From: Halichondria panicea
Lineage: Eukaryota > Porifera > Demospongiae > Suberitida > Halichondriidae
Reading direction: 5' to 3'
DNA length: 64,000 bases
Assembly (NCBI RefSeq): GCF_963675165.1
Contig: NC_087385.1
Coordinates: forward strand, 4,092,501-4,156,500
Shown here: positions 3,885 to 60,888 of the stretch, in pieces
Position numbering within the stretch: the first letter of the stretch is position 1
How the letters are laid out: each line of letters starts with the position of its first letter
The notes under the pieces: model-generated
Databases searched by the model: none
Told to the model about the DNA's origin: nothing
What the model saw: only the letters and a program-made list of their open reading frames with translations
Made by a program: the position numbers and the translations under genes

Positions 3885-3982
3885 TAGCCTCGATCCCAGG
3901 CCGAGTTTTCGCTTTTATAACGGTTAGGCGAACGTTCGCCTAACCGTTATAAAAGCGAAAACTCGGCCTGGGATCGAGGCTA
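3885..3982. mobile_element. 98-bp perfect palindrome, TAGCCTCG family
   Basis: Two 49-bp arms are exact reverse complements with no spacer; the centre lies between 3933 and 3934. Outer ends read TAGCCTCGATCCCAGGCCG and its complement. Flanking 9-mers are ATGAGTGAT (3876-3884) and GTGAGTGAT (3983-3991), eight of nine identical, as expected of an ageing 9-bp target-site duplication. There is no coding capacity. It would form a long hairpin if single stranded. Confidence 0.92.
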
Positions 3983-6020: not shown

Positions 6021-6368
6021 GTAGGACTGGAAACCACTCCCCTTCTCTCGGGAGAAAGGGACTGGCAAGCTGCCGTGTTGAGAGTTGTCCCAGTGCGTGA
6101 GGAATGTCACGCTGCCACAAGAATGTAAACGTCACAAATACTCGTGTGCCACGGCCCACACGCTAACTATTACTGCATAAAATATTACCTGCCTCGAGTA
6201 TAAGTACATTCACTGGCGGTCTGTTATCGAGGCTGAACTAATATCACCCACGCATTACGCATTTTGTGGTTTGTTCTAATTGCATTCCAACAGGACAACT
6301 CTCAACACGGCAACTTGCCAGTCCCCAGAGCCCAGAAGCGAAGGGAGTGGTTTCCAGTCTATGCTACA
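6015..6368. repeat. imperfect inverted-repeat element
   Basis: Left arm 6015-6091 and right arm 6293-6368 are complementary over GACTGGAAACCACTCC and GACTGGCAAG(C/T)TGCCGTG and TTGAGAGTTGTCC, with a divergent stretch between these blocks. The roughly 200-bp spacer has no coding sequence. It probably represents a MITE; no target duplication was found. Confidence 0.7.
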
Positions 6369-8310
6369 TATATAGCTAGCCTCGACTCCAGCCCCTTGAA
6401 TAGTGGGCCTGGTATTTACTGTTGGCGCGTGGGTGGACAATTAATTTATTATTTACCGTATTTATCTCATTGAACGTTAAAACAGTATTTTATCTTATTG
6501 TGATAAAGAACAGAAAAAAGAAAAAGAAGAGGCTACCTCTCTGCATATACTGTAGACAGAGACAGCTAAGTAAAACATCAGCTCTGTAGATTTATTCATT
6601 AACTTGAGGCTTGGATCGGATACACACTCAGGCGACAAGTTAATCTCATAAGAAATTAGTTAAACCTGTGGGTAAAAAATAAGTACAGTGGCTGTGACGT
6701 AACATAATGTGAGGACTACTTATTGATTTACACAATAGATTTACCATTGAAAGCACTATCCATTAATACACACTCAAGCAACAAGTCCGGATACACACTC
6801 AAGCAACAAGTCCCTCGGATCGGATACACGGATTGTAAACACATTCAGGCCACACAGTTCTCGGATCAGATACCACGTACTTACTCTGTGACCAATTTTC
6901 GGCAAATGTCACAACAATACTTCCTTCCAGAGAGAAATGGCACTGAACGTCGAACAGACACACCAACACTTTGAAGATGGCTTCACTCAGAGAAACAAGA
7001 GGAGAAATCACCATCACAACACTTCTTTCAGAGAGAGGTGCACTGGTCCTGTCAAGCTTCACATCAATCAAGAAAGGGAGTGTCTGGAAAGCAGATGGAC
7101 TTGCTCTGGGACTTGCCATAGCCGGTCGGTACGGTACCCACATAAACACCAGCGTACAGACACTTCAACAGGGGCGATGCGCGCCGCAAAATTTAGACCA
7201 CGCCCACTTCCGGGATCACGCCTCCTTTTGTCGGCAACGCCCACTGTTTTCTAGATGGTGCACAGCCACAGTACTGACGTGACAGTGCCATCAGCAAATC
7301 AAGAATGTTTACGACCAGAAGCTCAATTCGCCTGGGATGGCAAACTCTAGCCAACTCTTCTTAAGGTATGTCAAATGTCAATGCAATCATGTCTAGTCTC
7401 TGTGTAAATGTAGAAGTTATTAAGTGATGATAAACGTTTGTTCCTTTGCTTGATCTGACGACAGTCTTGATTCTTTTCTTTTCAGGCCACTAAAAGATTG
7501 ATCAGCTTACCAGGAGGTGACAGGCAGCGTACAAAGTATGACCACCAGTACGTACCTTGATGTTGAGGAAAAGAGACTTTGTAGTTTACATTGCAAACAT
7601 TGATTATTATTATAATTTATTGTACATACATGTAGGTATACATGTAATTATATAATTATACTATACATTCATGTACCTGGATCCAAGAACCTTGTTGTGC
7701 TGCATGTTGTGAGGCAAGCTCAAGTGTTTGATACAGCAAACCACTTCCTGCTGCCTAGCCTTATTATTGAGCCCCTCCCCACTCTTTATTAGTTCCCATG
7801 GATATCCCAGTAACGATCGAATAAAATTAAGTTTTTTAGGCTAGCTAGCTAGATCTAACTGGTATAAAGTTATTGTAACTATCACTATTAAGCTGTAGAT
7901 AGCTGCAGTAAGTGTAGCTTCATTCTAGCCAGCCAGTGATGGTTGAACTATCTACTTGAGCTTCTCTGAGTCTGGATAGGGTGCTGGAGCACCAGAGCCT
8001 GGATGGGGGTGCTGGAGCACCCTAAGCACCACCTTGTGTACGCCCCTGCTTCAACGCCTCCAGCTGCTTGTCTTTCAAGACTAGACCTGGTATTCCAACA
8101 CAGGATAACGCGTACACAAGAGCAGAAGAGAAGGTAGCAGCCATTACACAACTTGGACTAGATTTCTTTTTTCAATGACATCATTATAAATGAAACGGAT
8201 ATCAATGTTTTACAAACTAATGCGGAATAAGAATACTGATAAATATACTGCAATTTACGATTACCAAGATTCTTGGTAATTCTGGCGCATGCGTAAACAG
8301 TGTATACCAG
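6369..8310. other. gene-free region with a short tandem repeat
   Basis: No supported gene. A 25-bp unit containing ACACACTCAAGCAACAAGTC occurs twice in tandem near 6770-6815, with a diverged relative near 6622. Overlapping frames at 6937-7282 lack any recognisable domain. Near 7980-8030 there are two copies of GGGTGCTGGAGCACC-like sequence. Confidence 0.4.
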
Positions 8311-8364
8311 GCCGCCTTTCTCAGCGGCTTGGAATCGAGGCTACATATATAGCTAACAAAAAGC

Positions 8365-8429
8365 TAGCCTCGATCCCAGGCCGCACTTTCCACTTCACTT
8401 CTTTTCTATGAAGGCAGTGAAGGAGGCTA
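8365..8429. mobile_element. 65-bp TAG...CTA element, subfamily II
   Basis: It runs from TAGCCTCGATCCCAGGCCGC to AGGCAGTGAAGGAGGCTA. The 9-mer ACAAAAAGC flanks it exactly at 8356-8364 and 8430-8438. A shorter relative in opposite orientation lies at 13636-13684. The arms are only partly complementary, unlike the strict palindromes. Confidence 0.9.
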
Positions 8430-8438
8430 ACAAAAAGC

Positions 8439-8485
8439 TAGCCTCGATTCCAGGCCGTATTTTAATCGGCCTTGAATCGAGGCTA
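8439..8485. mobile_element. 47-bp palindromic TAGCCTCG element
   Basis: Arms TAGCCTCGATTCCAGGCCG and its complement (one mismatch) surround a short AT loop (TATTTTAAT). It is flanked exactly by ACAAAAAGC at 8430-8438 and 8486-8494, so it shares one copy of the duplication with the neighbouring element at 8365-8429. The uninterrupted target is at 11461-11469. Confidence 0.93.
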
Positions 8486-8494
8486 ACAAAAAGC

Positions 8495-11425: not shown

Positions 11426-11496
11426 CTGTTTTAACAGGTATTTTCTGAGTCTTGTAGCTAACAAAAAGCTAGCGCTTTAATGCAAGGCTAACTCAT

Positions 11497-12984: not shown

Positions 12985-14315
12985 TAGCCTCGATCCCAGG
13001 CGGATCCGTCTCTAATTGAACGCTAGGTCGCCTCCTCGGCCTGGTATTGATTGTATCTGGGCGTGTATCTGGGCATGTGCTGTGGTTGCTGTGGTTGCTC
13101 AGGTATTCGCTAAAAAAGAGCGAATACCTGAGCAAGGTGGAGCGAATAGAACACTAATAGTGTATGTAAGCATACTTACTCCGTAAAATCACCGTTAAAT
13201 CACAAAGAACTCCGTGTCATAGGTCTATTCGTTTAGTTTGTCATAGATATAGGCTTAGCTAGCTAGAGTGTGAGGAGCTGTCTTGTGCGAAGGAAGAAGG
13301 AGCATCACTCTTGTGAAAGAACAGACCTAGGTTCTCAAGTTTCTGCTATCAGTGGCTACCTTTGATTGACTACACAATTTAATACAAGCGCTTGATTAGA
13401 CCATTGATTGCCAGATACACTTGGTAGAGTCTATCCTCAGACTCTGGCCATCGATCTCTTGTATACTATGCTCAGGGGTGTCCACAAGTGGCTGGGCCTG
13501 GGATGTATTGTCAAGGTGAGCGATATAAATCAATAATCCCCTTTCATCATTGGAAATTGTACACTATAGCCTATAGCCCAATCCTTGGTATCTGGATCAA
13601 GATATGACATTACGGCACTGGCACTGGTGTTGTGTTAGCCTCCTTCACCGGCCTTCAAGGAAGTGCGGCCTGGGATCGTGGCTAGTTTGTGTGGACCATC
13701 ACTGTGAGTTACAAAATGTATAGTGGAATGGTGAATTTAAGTTCATACTAATTTGTATACAGGAGCAAAATGGAACCTTCCCCTCCAACCCCCGTCGTAC
13801 TCCTCCTAGCTGATGGGTGTGAACTAATTGAAAGAGGATGCCCCAGTGCCACTCGTGTCCTTCCCAAGGGTCCGATCTTATAGAACTACCTGCACTAAAA
13901 CTACGGACGTGGAATGGCTCTTTCAACACTTGTGGTTGCTATCCTGACCAGTGACGTCAGGATTCTACTGTCTCTTGATGCACTGTGAACACACAATCTT
14001 TGTTATGCCACCTGAAGGCTTAGCAGGCATATCCAACGCAGTATTTATTAAGTCTTTCTGGAAGCTCTTGTTTGAGATCTTCGCTTCTAAACATCTGCAT
14101 TTATTATGGACGCAGTACTGCTGTGCACAGTATTAATTTCTAGTGTCATTATATCATTATATCGCTGTATTTTTAGCCAACTGTGATAAACTGAAGATTT
14201 TACAGTACATAGCTGATACTTACCAATTTCCGGTCACGCCCAGATACAATCAATACCAGGCCGAGGAGGCGACCTAGCGTTCAATTAGAGACGGATCGGC
14301 CTGGGATCGAGGCTA
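12985..14315. mobile_element. 1331-bp long-form TAGCCTCG element with 9-bp duplication
   Basis: Terminal inverted repeats of about 80 bp start TAGCCTCGATCCCAGG, include GATCCGTCTCTAATTGAACG and GGTCGCCTCCTCGGCC, and end with GGTATTGATTGTATCTGGGC. Exact 9-bp flanks AGTTAGTAC occur at 12976-12984 and 14316-14324. The terminal repeat is itself partly self-complementary (CCAGGCC near the tip, GGCCTGG about 45 bp further in). Internal frames (13699-13929, 13951-14136) have no transposase signature, so it appears non-autonomous. Confidence 0.9.
13636..13684. mobile_element. 49-bp subfamily II element nested in the 1331-bp element
   Basis: It reads TAGCCTCCTTCACCGGCC ... GCGGCCTGGGATCGTGGCTA, the reverse-orientation relative of 8365-8429 with an internal deletion. 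Flanking 9-mers (GTGTTGTGT, GTTTGTGTG) are similar but not identical, so the duplication is uncertain. Confidence 0.7.
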
Positions 14316-14345: not shown

Positions 14346-14391
14346 TAGCCTCGAATCCACGCCGATTAAAATACGCGTGGATTCGAGGCTA
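14346..14391. mobile_element. 46-bp palindromic TAGCCTCG element with proven empty site
   Basis: Arms TAGCCTCGAATCCACGC and its complement close on an AT-rich centre. Exact 9-bp flanks AACGAATGC lie at 14337-14345 and 14392-14400. The reverse-complement paralogue at about 12747-12780 has AACGAATGC once and no insert. Confidence 0.95.
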
Positions 14392-22458: not shown

Positions 22459-22510
22459 TAGCCTCGAGACCACGCCCATTAAAATTTTAATCGGCCTGGT
22501 CTCGAGGCTA
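22459..22510. mobile_element. 52-bp palindromic TAGCCTCG element
   Basis: Left arm TAGCCTCGAGACCACGCC and right arm GGCCTGGTCTCGAGGCTA surround ATTAAAATTTTAAT. Flanks share ATAGC on both sides but not a full 9-mer, so either the duplication has decayed or a secondary rearrangement occurred. Confidence 0.8.
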
Positions 22511-22611: not shown

Positions 22612-22668
22612 TAGCCTCGAATCCAGGCCGATTAAAATACGTATTTTAATCGGCCTAGTCTCGAGGTA
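22612..22668. mobile_element. 57-bp palindromic TAGCCTCG element
   Basis: TAGCCTCGAATCCAGGCCG followed by ATTAAAATAC|GTATTTTAAT and a complementary arm ending GAGGTA (one C lost). Flanking 9-mers do not match. Confidence 0.8.
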
Positions 22669-22826: not shown

Positions 22827-25800
22827 TCAGGAGGTTGTCTGGTCATCTCCTTTGAGTAACCTGGTTGCCTCCTCCTCACTGACTTGACTCCACCCACTTC
22901 CAATCACGAAACCAATCTCTCTCTTCTTCTGTTCCTCTTTTTCGGCCTCTAAATCTGCCCAACGGACCTGAAATGTAAAGAAATTCCCCATTCAGAACAT
23001 CTGTGAATACCTGAAAGTGCAACATAACATTTTGTACTCTGCTTGCATGAATAATTTAGTACAATCAGGCAAAGCAACCTATACCTGGGATAAGTAATAC
23101 AGCGAAAGTATGCAAGAGCTCAACTAGCCTCGAGACCAGGCCGATTAAAATACGGCCTGGTCTCTATTGCATGTGTAATTAATCATAGGCGTGGTCAATA
23201 CACGCCCATGTACTATCTACTAGTTACTGTGTATATGAAGCCTAGCTAGCTAGCTGTGGCACTCTATGGTGTTGTGGAGAAGGCTTGCACACTAGTCTGA
23301 AACCAGAAGAGGCTCTCATCTACCTCCATGATGGTTGGATGGTTGTGATGTTTTGAACTTGGTTTCTGTACAAATGAGAGCTTCTTCTGGCTTCTGACTA
23401 GTGTGCAAGTCTTCTCGACAACACCATAGAGGGCCACAGCTAGCTAGCAAGCCTTCTCGACAACACAATAGAGAGCATAAGCCACAGTTTCACAGGAGAC
23501 AATTAAAAAATTAATACGGAAAGAAACTAGTAAACAAACTAGTTTACGGTATAATTTTACAAAGGTTTACTATAAAGTATACGAGTCACCCAGATTCTGG
23601 GTGACTCAGTTTGCGCATGCGCATGTGCACTATCACCCATGCAATAGAGACCAGGCCGTATTTTAATCGGCCTGGTCTCGAGGCTAGAGCTCAACTGGCT
23701 ATCACTTAAAACATAGAGACTACCTTTCATGCTGTCAAACTTACAAGATCATAGACTGTCTGTGCATTAATAATTTTTACACCACCCCACATCCATCGTA
23801 CAACATCACACAAATACGCCTTACTTTTGTAAGCATGCTAGAGTTACTGTAGCCTCGATTCCAGGCCGAGTTGTTTCTAGCTAGGCCGACAACTAGGCCT
23901 GGTGTTGATTGTATCTGGGCGTGGTTAGGAACCAAAAAACAAGAAGCAGAGAGATTTGCAAGAACAACACACCTGTCGACAAGGGCCGGCAGTGTTGGTC
24001 CTACCTACTAGTTTGTAGTCCATCACAAAGGGCAGTGAGTGCAAGCAAGATACTTGCCATACCATGTTGAAAACCATGGCAAAGACGTTTCTTCCTTCTG
24101 ACAAGAGCTGGGCCTGTTCTGCAATGAGAGTGGGGCCTTCTTGTGAAGCAGACAATGTATACGTTAATCTGAACAACTTAAACTTGCAGTAGCTAGCTAG
24201 CTAGATAATCTATGGCTAGATTTCAGTTACTTCAGAGCATACACGGAGCTAAATTACGGTATTAAACTTATACGGTGAAATATGACAGGAAATAAAGTGT
24301 GAAGAATCTCTGCTTTGGTTTCCAGTTCCTGCCACACCCAGATACAATCAATACCAGGCCGTATTTTTCAATTTCGTTCTATTAAAAAAAATCGGCCTGG
24401 GACCGAGGCTAGAGTTACTGTAGATATTCTTTTTTTGTAACTATCTACCTAGCACTGTTGTATGTAGTACGTAGCGCTCCAATCACACTTTATACCTTAT
24501 TGACCTCTCATTTCTAGCAGTATTTTTTTACTTCGTGTTTTTGTCCCAGGAGTACCCTTGAGCAGCATAAAAAAAAAATTCAAAAGATCCCCAGGTAGTA
24601 CTTAGGTATCAGACACTAATGCTCACCCTCTTCCCTGCCGGGCCACTGTCCACCTCCTGCTTCCCCCTCAGGTACTCCGTGAGACTCAATCCCTCTTCCT
24701 CAGACTGGAGACGTCTGCGCTTACGAAACAAACCGACAGCATCCATCTTGTCTATAAGGGTGTGTGTGTGAGTGAACAGAGTGTGGATGCATGTGTCTGT
24801 AGAAAAAGGGGTAAGGAAAGCAAGAATGGATGTGAATGGAACAAACAATGGTATACACATTTTAATGTAAGTATATAGTATAATAATACACGGTACATGT
24901 ATAGTAGTTAAAATTGTACACACCTAGCCTGTATTCAGACGGGTCGTCCCAACGACTCTTAACGAGCTGTGATCGATGACAGCAACTTACGACAGTCATA
25001 CAGTAACATACATGGACGCAGTGCACACTCAAAAATACACGAGTCCTTATAACGTACGCATGGAATGTTAAAGCTTCTTTGAATCTTCTCTAGGGATAAC
25101 CTTTTAATAATTATTATACACTTACACTCATCCAATAAAGGCAACACAAGAGACGTACACAAATAATCATGTCAAACCTCATCATTATCATGGTTTTTTA
25201 CTGCCTTTTCATCATTCTCATTTTCGTTACATTCCATTTCCACCTGTGAGAAAAGCCAATGACCTACTACAACCATGTACGTACGAGCACACTAATCGGA
25301 GTCTACCAGCATTAAGAGTGACCAGAATGCTACATTTACAGGAGCTTGTAATCTACGTGATTCAGTTCTAAACTAGTTCCTGAGGCTTCTAAATGGCATA
25401 AAAACATTCTCAAATATGTAGTTCACTGAAGTTTAAGGATTGGTAGAGGTGTGCACTTCCACTGTTAACACACAAGTACAATGTAACAACCTCGTCGATG
25501 TTGGTGTTCGATAAGAGTGCAGTGACATCTAGTCTGGTGAAGTGCGGGGGTGTGGCCTCCCAATGAGATTGCAGCTGAAGGAGGGGGAGTATTTTGGTAC
25601 ACCCTACTATTACATGTATATAATTATATGAATAACACTTAGAATAAATAACTTGATGAAAAGGTTTGGGTAAAGGACATCACTAAAAATATATACACAC
25701 ATGTATGCAATAAAGTACCGCTGGTCTGGTGCTGATGCCTCGGTGGAGGTAATAACATAAAGCTACTAATAGCTTTTATACACACATCATAATTATCATG

Positions 25801-56000: not shown

Positions 56001-59000
56001 AGTACGAGGCTAATAGTCCTATTCGTTTAAGAGCCTGGAATTTTGATTGCTATTTGAACGCCCACTAACTACTTCCTGTATAGCTTCCGCAGTAAAATTG
56101 TGCTGAGCTGGCACACCCTTTAACATTGAAGTCAGAGGAGGGAGGACACGATTAACCTTAGCTCTAATTAGCTAATTATCGCGACCTTTTAATTACATTC
56201 TTTGAACGATTCATCTTTTCTTTCTTTATAACCTCTACATATTGGACACAAGAGCTAGAGCCTTTTCTCCTACTGGAGGTACCCCTATGGCCAAGTTGTC
56301 AGGACCTGAAGGTAATAGGACCTATAAGAAGCACCTCAAGTACTCCTATCTCTAAGATCCCTGTGAGAAGCATCCCAGGCACTCTGATCTTGTCTCTGTG
56401 AGAAGCACTCTTGATCCTGGAGACAGGATCCCTATGAGGAGCACCCCAGGCACTCCTGTCTCCAAGATCCCTGTGAGAAGCACCCCAGACACTCCTGTCT
56501 CTGTGATAAAGCTGCAACATGGAATTGTTTAGTTCAGAGTGTCTCCAACATGAAGAACATCAATGACACTAGCAGTCTCAGCTTCTAGCACCCCTTTATT
56601 TGTATGGTTTGCTCTGTCTGTGCCTGCAAGAATTGCTTGTCACTCATACTACAGTACTGTTCTGTGTGTCCCAATATATAGAGGTTATAAAGAAAGAAAA
56701 GATGAATCGTTCAAAGAATGTAATTAAAAGGTCGCGATAATTAGCTAATTAGAGCTAAGGTTAATCATGTCCTCCCTCCTCTGCATTGTAAAATCAATGT
56801 GTTTTTGCAGCCTCTGCATTCTGCAATGCATGCGGAAGTTTGTGAAATATTGAAGTAAGAGCTACACAATGGTTTTTGTCCCAGAGAGTGTTTGTCAACT
56901 GTCAGTGAGCTAGCTGGTCTTGAAGATACCTACTATACACACAGTAAGTGCAGTAATAGTAGATCTACATGTAAGAGGTAGTCTAATGCTCAAGGATGAT
57001 GGAACATCTTATGTACATAGTAGGCATCTGCAGAATTGTGTAGAGGAGATGTTCCACCATCTTTGAGCATTAGTTTACCTCTTAGATCTACTACTACTGC
57101 ACTATACTGCACTTACTGTGTATATAGTAGGTATCTTCAAGACCAGCTAGCTCACTGATAGTTGACAAACACTCTCTGGGACAAAAACCATTGTGTAGCT
57201 CTTACTTCAATATTTCACAAACTTCCTTTATTTAGAATAATAGCACATGCATTGCAGAATGCAGAGGCTGCAAAAACGCATTGATTTTACAATGACTTCA
57301 ATGTAAAAGGGCATGCCAGCTCAGCACAATTTTACTGCGGAAGCTATACAGGAAGTAGTTGTGGGCGTTTAAAAAGCAATCAAAATTCCAGGCTCTTAAA
57401 CGAATAGGACTATTAATATTTTGTCTCTTCGCTATAGGGGATATCATTCTCAAAGAGATGTACACATACAAGACGAAGCTTACAAAAATGAACGAGACAG
57501 TATTGAGCTATTGCTTCATGCGAAATAAGCCTGATGGCACTTGCTATTCGCTCACAATCAGTGGAACAGAATTGACACAAATTACCGATACCGAAATCTG
57601 GCGACGTTGTAAAGACCTGAAAATCGTAATCTTGTTGATGAATGAGCTAGACTCATTGCCTGCCAAGGAATTGCTGAAGTATGCATCTACCATAGAGCTT
57701 GTTTGCATCCAAAATAACAAATTCATAGCCGTTCCACCGATTATCTACAAGCTGACCAATATCAAGCACCTCAATCTCCACGGGAACCAAATCTCGACAT
57801 TTCCTTCTGAACTGCAATCTTTAAAACACCTTGAACGCCTTAAATTTGGCCATAACAACCTGTACTCTCTTCCAGACATATTTTGTGGCTTCAAATGCCT
57901 CATTGAAATAACATTCAACAACAATTTTCTAACTAGACTTCCTCCATCATTTGCCGAGCTCACAAGACTAGAGTGTATTGATCTCACAAACAATTCATTT
58001 ACCTGCATCCCGGCACCTTTACTCAAGCTACCGAATCTAAAATCTATCTATATGAGGTTCAACAGAATCCACAGGCTGTCTCCGCTTGAAGACATAGAAG
58101 GAAAGAACACTCGTGCTCTATTGCTGAAATTGGTTACACTTTCACTTCGAGGAAATCCGATCTATATGCGACTCAAATTTTTACCAGGTAAAACTAAAGC
58201 TTTAGAGAATGTTAGAGCTAACTTCTTAAAACTTGGCCAGATTCCTGGTCAAACTACAAAAGCTCTTCGTGTGCTTGTACTAGGCTCGTGTGGTGCTGGT
58301 AAAACTAGCATCGTAGATGCTTTAAGCTTTGAGAAATATGTGACTCCAACTTCTGAAATGCACCACGATCACACTGTCGGCATCGATCGGTTTTCAATTC
58401 CAGTGAAAATGAAAACTATATATACTGAGGACTGCATTGTTGAACTCCGCCTATGGGACTTTGCTGGAGAGAGAAGCTACATCATGATGAATGACCTCTT
58501 CATTACAAATGGTACACTAATTTGGATAGCCATAAATTTCCAAAGATATGAGTGCACACCCAAAAGTTTTAAGCTGTATGTAGCTAATTGGTTACAGCAA
58601 ATTATGATCAAGAATGTTAGGCCTATTGTATGGATCATCGGTACACACACAGACAAATGTGAACCACAAGACGTTCAAAACAAAGCTGAACATATTCGGA
58701 GCATGATTGAAGATGAATGCAAACTGTTTCGTAAAGAACTAAAGAATGAGCTCGAAACGTTGAGAACAATAGAAGCAACAAGTAAATATGGAAACCGATC
58801 ACCGAAATGTGTTCAAAAAAACATTAAACATCTCAATGATGTCAATGAAAACAGCGTACCTTGTTTTGTTTTGCATCATTTGAAAGTACTTCATCTGACA
58901 AATACGCACACATTATCGGGATTTGCTAATTTGAAAGATAATCTTGCTTGCTTTCTTGACAATGAATCTTTTGCTTATCTCACGTTACCACTCACTGTTA

Positions 59001-60888
59001 ATCAGCAAAAAGCAGCCGACGTGCTTCGATATGAAACTGAAAAGCTTCTGTCAGATGGACAAGCCCCTATTTTAGAAAAATCCCGAGTGCTGGAATTTAT
59101 CAGGAATGAACTAGGACAACAATCAAGCGATAAAGAAGCGGCATCGTTTCTTAAATACCTCCATCAATCTGGCCACCTGTTAGATTGCGAGTCAAACGTT
59201 GTCGTGTACGTCATAATGGATGTTGATTGGTTGATTGATTTGTTGAAACAAGTGTTTCACCATGATTTTTCAGCGATGGTAGCTGAGAAAAAGAGAAGGT
59301 CTGCTTTTAATCAATTAACTGATGAAAGCATTCAGCGGGCTATTATGATTCAGAAGCAATCAGGAGTAGTTGAGCAGCCATTGCTCAAAGCACTGTGGCC
59401 ATTAAATCCTAACGTTTTTAAAGATCTGGTAAACTTACTTCAAACGTATGGACTGGCTTATGAAACAACTGATCCATCTGGTTATTTATTTCCATGGTTA
59501 GTGACGGAAAGCAGTCCCAATCTAGTACCACCCACTCTTGCTGCCTTTGAAAGTCGAATCATGGTATCGTATGAGTTTTCACCTTGCCTTCCAATATGCT
59601 TCCTACAGCAGCTAGCAGTTAGGTGTAAGGAGGGTGTTTCTATTAAGAATGTTTGTACTAATTCATTCATTGTATACGAATCAAAACAGCTATCTCCAAT
59701 GGAAGACGAAATAGCTACGCACACCGTGCTGGTTTCAATTAAACACGAGAAACAGTGTGGGCAAATTAAACTGTATGCTACCACAGATAGAAGTAAGGAT
59801 AGGTCATTAATGAAGGAGTTGTGGTTCATGGTAATGCAAATAGTTAAGAAAATGGAAACACTTTTGTGTAATTGGACGTTTTACAGTAAATTTCAAAGAA
59901 AGGTGTGCTGTCCTCTTTGTACCGTGTCTTTGATTGATCTGCAAATTCAGAGACAAGTTGGATGTCTACAGCAAGGACGTGAATGCTATAAATGTGCCAG
60001 TAAAATTCCATCAGGCTACATAGTTCCACCAGCCGAATACCAAATAAACAGATTTGTTGATGGTCAGGATCCCAGTTCACCATCAACACCTCTCTTGCAG
60101 CGATCAACATCTATTCCATTGGATGCTGCTGTTACAGCTGATGAAAGACGTACGCATCGGTCATATTCCGTTCCTTGTCCCTATGGCCTCAAGCTTTTAT
60201 CGATTCCAGATCCGGAGCAACATGAGTCACCACTTCATCATGCCTCACATTCTTGTCCTGCTAGGAGATGTCCAGTCCTGTCACAATACCACAAGCAAGC
60301 CGCCTTCAATACACACCCTACACAGTTATCTGATAGTATAGCACCAATCCAGGAGGAAGGAGATGACCTATTTCGTATGGAAGCTGATCGTGATGCAGAA
60401 CCAATTCAAGCTACTCCTGACTTTCCACAACTGTCATCAGGTAAGATTTTAATGCACATGCACACATACACATGTACGTAAATACTAATTTGAATACAGA
60501 TACGTCGCTCGCCTATGCTGCTGTCAAGAAAATGGTACTGCTGCACAGCAATCATGTTCACAAAGCTCATGTTTACACCAGACGTATAAATCGGAAAGAT
60601 CAACTTTTATTAGCGTATAATTCCACTGATTGTGATTGGAAAGGCCTACTGGCAAATCTAGGCATATCTCACATTCCTAATATTGAGAAGGTAATTCTGT
60701 CTCGATCTGATGACGGTAGTGGAGAGCCCCCATTAAGAAATGAGCTCATCTATCAAGTGCTGTGGGAGTGGATGACCAAACAAGGATCGAGAGCCACTGT
60801 TTCCGGTCTGGCAACAGCCGTAATTAACTCAAAAAAAGAAAGTTTCTGGGATGATGCATTTGCACTATTATTCAAAAGCAATCGTTAG
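53030..60888 (+). CDS. MIB/HERC2-ZZ-LRR-Roc-COR-Death protein, 7 coding exons
   Basis: Coding exons: 53030-53378, 53586-53790, 53848-53882, 54273-54334, 55765-55906, 57438-60440, 60500-60888; 1394 aa; every junction is GT-AG and in phase. Order: MIB/HERC2 domain (about 35-117; GVRVAYY...VGTVTGFDFGEGVVSVFWDCG), ZZ zinc finger (about 120-175; FCDKC...YDLCVQCY...SHFHC), and an unassigned segment. Then leucine-rich repeats (about 325-510), Roc GTPase (P-loop GSCGAGKTS near 547, switch II LWDFAGE, GTHTDKC), COR (about 785-980; VDWLIDLLKQVF), a Cys cluster (about 1087-1125) and a C-terminal Death domain (about 1305-1394; DWKGLLANLGI, LIYQVLWEWMTKQG). Roc-COR modules are dimeric GTPases; Death domains recruit partners in cell-death or immune signalling. 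No kinase domain was seen. No ATG opens the large exon before 57458, and the open frame upstream of 57438 is transposon sequence, favouring one spliced gene. Confidence 0.85.
53427..53458. mobile_element. truncated TAGCCTCG element in intron 1
   Basis: CCAGGCCGCACAAGGCCTGG core plus right arm GATCGAGGCTA; the outer part of the left arm is missing. A weaker relative starts TAGCCTCAAGACCAGGCC near 54471. Confidence 0.7.
54335..55764 (+). other. intron 4 of the MIB-Roc-COR gene
   Basis: No coding sequence found. Near 54775 is CAGTGGAACCTCCATTTATA, a start typical of some animal DNA-transposon ends, without a visible partner end. A TAGCCTCA-type half element is near 54471. Confidence 0.45.
56012..57414. 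mobile_element. compound inverted-repeat element filling intron 5
   Basis: Outer arms 56012-56134 and 57293-57414 start AATAGTCCTATTCG and are nearly perfect inverses. Between them lie two further hairpins side by side: arms about 56135-56250 with 56666-56785 (GGAGGGAGGAC...TATAACCTCT) and about 56786-56995 with 57035-57292 (TTGCAGCCTCTGCATTC...). Almost the whole intron is therefore self-complementary. No target duplication found; no coding capacity. Confidence 0.85.
56318..56515 (+). repeat. minisatellite in the loop of the compound element
   Basis: About four to five degenerate units of roughly 38-50 bp built on GATCCCTGTGAGAAGCACCC and CAGGCACTCCTGTCTC. Confidence 0.8.

Follow-up and report, generated by a model that had tools for sequence, protein, structure and literature searches.

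How do two elements of 65 and 47 bp come to lie side by side, separated and flanked by three copies of a single 9-mer? The question is posed by positions 8356-8494 of the window, the 64,000-nucleotide stretch of Halichondria panicea DNA analysed here, in which the order is ACAAAAAGC, 65 bp, ACAAAAAGC, 47 bp, ACAAAAAGC. The original prediction described two mobile elements inserted into one target, and the coordinates of both elements and of the three 9-mers are confirmed.

8356..8364, + strand: target duplication copy 1, ACAAAAAGC
8365..8429, + strand: 65-bp element with unlike ends (TAGCCTCGATCCCAGGCCG... / ...GGCAGTGAAGGAGGCTA)
8430..8438, + strand: target duplication copy 2, ACAAAAAGC
8439..8485, + strand: 47-bp near-palindromic element
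8486..8494, + strand: target duplication copy 3, ACAAAAAGC
11455..11479, + strand: 25-bp match to the empty target, TAGCTA-ACAAAAAGC-TAGCGCTTTA

The single ACAAAAAGC copy at 11461-11469 had been proposed as the pre-insertion site. It is present, but the shared match is 25 bp in all and both places diverge beyond it. The perfect terminal repeat of the 65-mer is 7 bp. A 19-base version of the end has 19 matches in the window at up to 3 mismatches, against 0 in 100 shuffles. These ends belong to elements of very different length, the nearest of which stops 12 bp before the first ACAAAAAGC.

3885..3982, + strand: 98-bp perfect palindrome, duplication ATGAGTGAT/GTGAGTGAT (8/9)
6377..8343, + strand: 1967-bp element with family ends, 10-bp duplication CATATATAGC at 6367-6376 / 8344-8353
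12985..14315, + strand: 1331-bp element, duplication AGTTAGTAC
14346..14391, + strand: 46-bp palindromic element, duplication AACGAATGC, fold z -9.6
22459..22510, + strand: 52-bp palindromic element, without a clean 9-bp duplication
22612..22668, + strand: 58-mer-like palindrome, right end damaged (GAGGTA), no duplication noted
23125..23686, + strand: 562-bp element, duplication GAGCTCAAC
23850..24411, + strand: 562-bp element, duplication GAGTTACTG

Duplications of the window elements with family ends are 9 or 10 bp. The predicted size range of 46-100 bp is too narrow: it is exceeded within the window by the elements of 562, 562, 1331 and 1967 bp, and pieces of 35 and 36 bp with perfect duplications lie below it elsewhere in the genome (L077, L009 and L014, loci outside the 56-site test given below). 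At 35-106 bp, the small elements have no room for a coding sequence. The ORF listing has frames over the 1077-, 1331- and 1967-bp elements, those in the 1967-bp element reaching up to 121 aa.

The same ends recur throughout the genome (131,455,214 bases, 39 contigs). One end variant, at up to 2 mismatches, gives 3988 forward and 3950 reverse matches in the whole genome, while its reversed control gives 0 and 2. Pairs of perfect 9-bp ends occur 538 times at 20-50 bp and 570 times at 51-81 bp, with no control matches in either class; the first 50 places listed for each size class all lie on contig C1. Many of the listed 20-50 bp places fall in an amplified region of C1, at about 1.1-2.4 Mb.

For the duplications, 72 micro-elements representing 56 distinct sites were chosen by their own sequence regardless of their flanks. 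A 9-bp duplication of at least 8/9 is found at 44 of the 56 sites and is perfect at 41, as the original prediction of mobile elements with 9-bp target duplications had it. Left and right 9-mers match much more often than when the right flanks are permuted; the mean number of matching sites over 1000 such runs is 0.86, mostly chance fixed points (44/56, about 0.8), and the maximum 6. Perfect flank matches have k=9 in 41 cases, k=8 in 1 and k=10 in 1, which excludes a 17-bp duplication that includes GCTA/TAGC. A tandem repeat in the host sequence, suggested at the outset as another source of the ACAAAAAGC copies, is rejected because the shared 9-mer differs between loci. In four of the 12 sites below 8/9 (L095, L099, L106 and L165) inspection by eye finds the 9-mer, or 8 of its bases, after 1-3 extra bases; in L095, L099 and L106 these are 2-3 bases (TA or TAG) that separate one end from an otherwise matching duplication.

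The TAGCC...GGCTA elements are a large, non-autonomous DNA-transposon family with 9-bp target duplications, and a very compact variant of a known transposon type. They have the inverted terminal repeats, fixed-length duplication and very high copy number of short MITEs, whose usual size is about 100-600 bp. They differ from MITEs in the 58-bp unit that has been amplified, in the pieces of 35-47 bp, and in the stacking of unlike elements in one 9-mer. Besides the duplications and the copy number, the genome holds this 58-bp unit, a palindromic target motif, and second elements that recur one duplication away from the first. Our main reading, to which we give a probability of roughly 0.75, is a MITE-like cut-and-paste family that is moved in trans and whose elements are stacked by target mimicry. 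A trans-acting enzyme would join the element ends across a 9-bp stagger. The case is strongest in the amplified 58-bp unit and in the way that end sequence, target motif and stacking agree with one another.

The 58-bp unit is a near-perfect palindrome with 30 exact copies on 14 contigs. Perfect 9-bp duplications surround 20 of the 23 copies that were fetched and comprise 15 distinct 9-mers. Six of these 20 copies share one 9-mer within repeated flanks and so represent a single site in a host repeat. The two arms of the exact copies differ, one carrying TTCC and the other TTCAA; when one mismatch is allowed, the complete list further includes 11 double-TTCAA and 2 double-TTCC places. The excess of mixed-arm copies argues for spread from one source, although the matched arms look clearly like the product of conversion between arms as well. 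A unit of this length in 30 exact copies, with clean duplications around most of those fetched, is relevant to how small a DNA a transposase can still synapse and cut, and raises the question of how two ends meet on so short a duplex.

The 47-mer at 8439 equals the 58-mer minus 11 central bases and has 7 exact copies genome-wide, the window copy included. Since both mirror-image deletion forms are found, the 47-mers may have arisen by repeated collapse of the palindrome at its centre, and pieces below 50 bp in general may be deletions of the 58-mer. We infer such a descent for many of them, whether or not they are still mobile. A stronger version holds that elements below 50 bp never moved as such and arose in place by deletion within longer insertions, the duplication being spared. 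This has a real chance of being right, somewhat short of even, and is compatible with the main reading. Beyond the two mirror forms, it draws on the varying deletion points among the listed 20-50 bp matches, on L133, where a piece resembling the 58-mer is shortened to 38 bp while the 9-mers beside it are intact, and on the sites below 40 bp, where 1 of 6 distinct sites has a clean duplication. Against it, six of the seven exact 47-mers lie in different perfect duplications (the seventh follows one extra base), a pattern that recurrent deletion could nevertheless mimic. The loop of the 47-bp forms reads TATTTTAAT on the assembly + strand in 15 of 17 places, a count to which one repeated host site contributes 3, and in forms with other arms its orientation is 3 to 2. 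The bias is odd, as contig orientation should be arbitrary; a consensus error at hairpins or chance are possible causes.

It had also been suggested that an element below 50 bp that is nearly all arm might move as a hairpin. The description suits the 47-mer (single-stranded DNA folding, z -10.0) and not the 65-mer, which folds like its shuffles (z -1.3; 20 of 200 fold equally well). Strong hairpins are also formed by the 46-mer (z -9.6) and by the 58-mer, an almost perfect DNA hairpin of -27.4 kcal/mol (z -11.6). If palindromic micro-elements moved as extruded hairpins or cruciforms, their ends would meet without bending of a short duplex, and the near-perfect fold of the 58-mer, together with its many exact copies in different duplications, speaks for such movement. 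We consider it unlikely. The 65-mer, which does not fold beyond shuffles, and the long elements carry the same ends and 9-bp duplications, and palindromes can also arise from the fusion of two terminal repeats. Since the predicted fold of the 65-mer is no hairpin, this structure is no general requirement of the family. Both ends of the 562-bp element at 23125 are hairpins with the loop ATTAAAATA/TATTTTAAT, like the 47-mers, and are a plausible source of the palindromes.

The main reading calls for an enzyme in trans. An autonomous element with TAGCC...GGCTA ends, proposed as a check on the family, was not found in the stretches read around MULE, Merlin, hAT and P domains. Domain matches number 31, 24, 32 and 46 genome-wide, and surroundings were read for 30, 4, 3 and 2 of them, mostly part-way to the ends of the locus. 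Around the 30 MULE domains, covered for about 1.5 kb on each side and in 7 cases also by stretches of 6.3-7.2 kb, no family end pair encloses the domain; the long inverted repeat at L114 is of different sequence. Two of the four Merlin loci read have ends GGTTAGGCTGACTA and 8-bp duplications. Of the others, L061 has a long repeat with other letters and in L060 no family ends were recognised. Family ends were likewise not found at the three hAT loci read or in the two stretches read around P domains. A 25-base end pattern has 0 matches in genome_contigs and the 19-base end 0 in viral_contigs. Two side observations come from these loci. At L111:6450-6490 a lone right end, flanked on either side by a partial GGGTTT repeat, lies about 2.8 kb from a MULE domain and looks like an insertion whose left end was lost. 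Eight P-type transposase domain matches share a score of 92.4 bits, five of them in 570-aa open frames, which suggests recent copies.

MULEs make duplications of 8-11 bp and hAT elements of 8 bp. The duplication found here, 9 bp and in some cases 10 bp, falls within the MULE range and outside those of hAT and of the P superfamily (7-8 bp). As summarised in PMC4486113, the foldback element MuTAnT of Medicago shares with the present family 9-bp duplications, a foldback form and a restricted choice of target; the target here is a palindromic motif around 9 bp instead of a TA microsatellite. A further difference is that no MULE transposase with TAGCC ends was found in the stretches read. Palindromic target motifs that reach beyond the duplication are summarised as general for Drosophila TIR transposons (PMC3276498). 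The summaries for the P superfamily describe the same feature in the P element (PMC7776569) and in Galileo, whose palindromic motif extends past the duplication (PMC4168063), and in this the family resembles them.

The original prediction inferred a target preference or tandem insertion from two hits in one 9-mer. A preference is now evident as a palindromic motif, about KYWN-[R N7 Y]-NWRM, in the empty targets of 46 distinct perfect-duplication sites. Flanking the 9 bp, C stands at -3 in 26 of 46 and G at +3 in 23 of 46 (P 7e-12). Sites flanked by GGCTA/TAGCC were dropped in building the motif, which biases against the motif when it is later compared with those flanks. The ends of the elements, GCTA/TAGC, are a near-optimal form of the motif's flanks. 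In leave-one-out scoring against window positions, real sites reach a mean of 18x background (median 5) and sites made by an insertion 43x (median 26); an element flank next to random host DNA reaches 7x. The window target, GCTA-ACAAAAAGC-TAGC, lies outside the training set and scores 162x, in the top 0.04% of window positions. Among other array targets, six score 14-410x and L063 0.2x.

Because the ends fit the target flanks, both copies of the duplication would become better targets after an insertion. The termini would mimic the half-sites on either side of the target; each insertion would then turn one target into two better ones, where later elements may stack. Two elements in one 9-mer recur at other places. 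The facing-end pattern TCGAGGCTA-N(0-30)-TAGCCTCGA has 96 places genome-wide, and in the 50 of them listed gap 9 occurs in 15 (11 of 40 distinct spacers, P 4e-8) and gap 4 in 6 of 40 (P 0.002). Gaps 17-18, with 7 of 40, are not predicted by the motif; they look as though two different duplications abut. With 7-bp ends and gaps of 4-14 there are 159 places, and gap 9 is found in 24 of the 50 listed (19 of 40 distinct, P 3e-10), gaps 4, 6, 8 and 10 in 4 distinct each. The P values assume a flat gap distribution and are rough, and the two lists overlap and come from the first contigs only.

Slid along the edge of a resident element, the motif gives 64x at gap 9 and 5.6x at gap 4, the best values among gaps 0-14, and 4.5 at gap 15; the 64x includes training sites, hence the leave-one-out figure above. 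The predicted ratio of gap 9 to gap 4 is about 11:1 and the observed ratios are 11:6 and 19:4, gap 4 being prominent in the 96-place list only and not in the 159-place list. With the motif, 5 same-site doubles are expected for 4000 elements and 21 for 8000; without it, 0.1 and 0.5. A rough extrapolation of the observed doubles gives about 60 distinct ones, above the motif expectation. Mimicry would therefore explain the stacking within a small factor. It offers a simple quantitative account of stacking, and is the opposite of target immunity.

Stacked P element insertions have reportedly been seen, and tethering or hybrid-end transposition is said to occur in Drosophila P elements. A transposase bound to resident ends could in the same manner guide second insertions here, in place of the motif. 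The apparent surplus of doubles over the motif expectation and the strength of gap 4 in the 96-place list speak for such guidance. The motif, however, was derived from sites without GGCTA/TAGCC neighbours and still puts gap 9 well ahead of all other gaps of 0-14, with gap 4 in second place, which makes guidance by resident ends improbable. We give a still more cautious reception to an extension that combines hairpin and mimicry, namely that the 58-bp palindrome is a complete substrate moving as a hairpin or cruciform and that the ends of the family evolved into copies of half the target, whereby the insertion site would propagate itself; it is quite improbable, and if true would describe a transposon growing its own landing pads.

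The structure of individual arrays bears on how they arose. Outer flanks are readable in eight gap-9 arrays (the window, L014, L063-L067 as one, L068, L071, L072, L074 and L077), while in L069, L070, L073, L075 and L076 one outer end falls beyond the sequence fetched, and reading further stretches for L070 and L075 did not reveal it. Three matching 9-mers are present in six of the eight, and two only in L074 and L077. One base is changed in one copy in L071, and in L068, which has three elements in a row, the three-copy 9-mer holds for two. In L079 a 10-mer is present three times, with one base altered in one copy. The MULE copies L009 and L011 contain a single 36-bp element in GGAAGTTGC; L014 is 99% identical to L011 over 2959 bp and has an extra, different 57-bp element in GGAAGTTGC. 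L011 and L014 are a before-and-after pair for a second insertion.

Tandem duplication of an element with its 9-mer by slippage is disfavoured for most resolved arrays and very improbable as a general cause, as neighbours are unlike (65+47, 57+36, 98+58, and about 1.09 kb and 103 bp in L072) and L014 gained a different second element relative to L011, though it fits L079, with near-identical neighbours of 77 and 79 bp, and L133. In L133 (25-147), three GTACACCTT copies surround the piece truncated to 38 bp and a 58-mer; both have the uncommon centre ATATGTATTTT, which fits slippage, or else a second copy with one end lost in place. Tandem MITEs are also known from the coral CMITE arrays, in whose summary (PMC2872659) elements and spacers are alike and slippage was inferred; in the present arrays the target duplication itself forms the spacer, and most of the neighbours that were resolved are unlike each other. 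Titles and abstract openings of open-licence papers gave no description of a TAGCC...GGCTA family or of target-mimicking ends.

The gene content of the window, with LRR-Roc, PBD and kinase domains and a DDE_3 transposase, points to a eukaryotic genome. The DDE_3 domain lies in a 355-aa open frame at 139-1206 on the - strand. A 1040-aa open frame at 57359-60481 on the + strand contains leucine-rich repeats, a Roc domain and a weak COR-A match.
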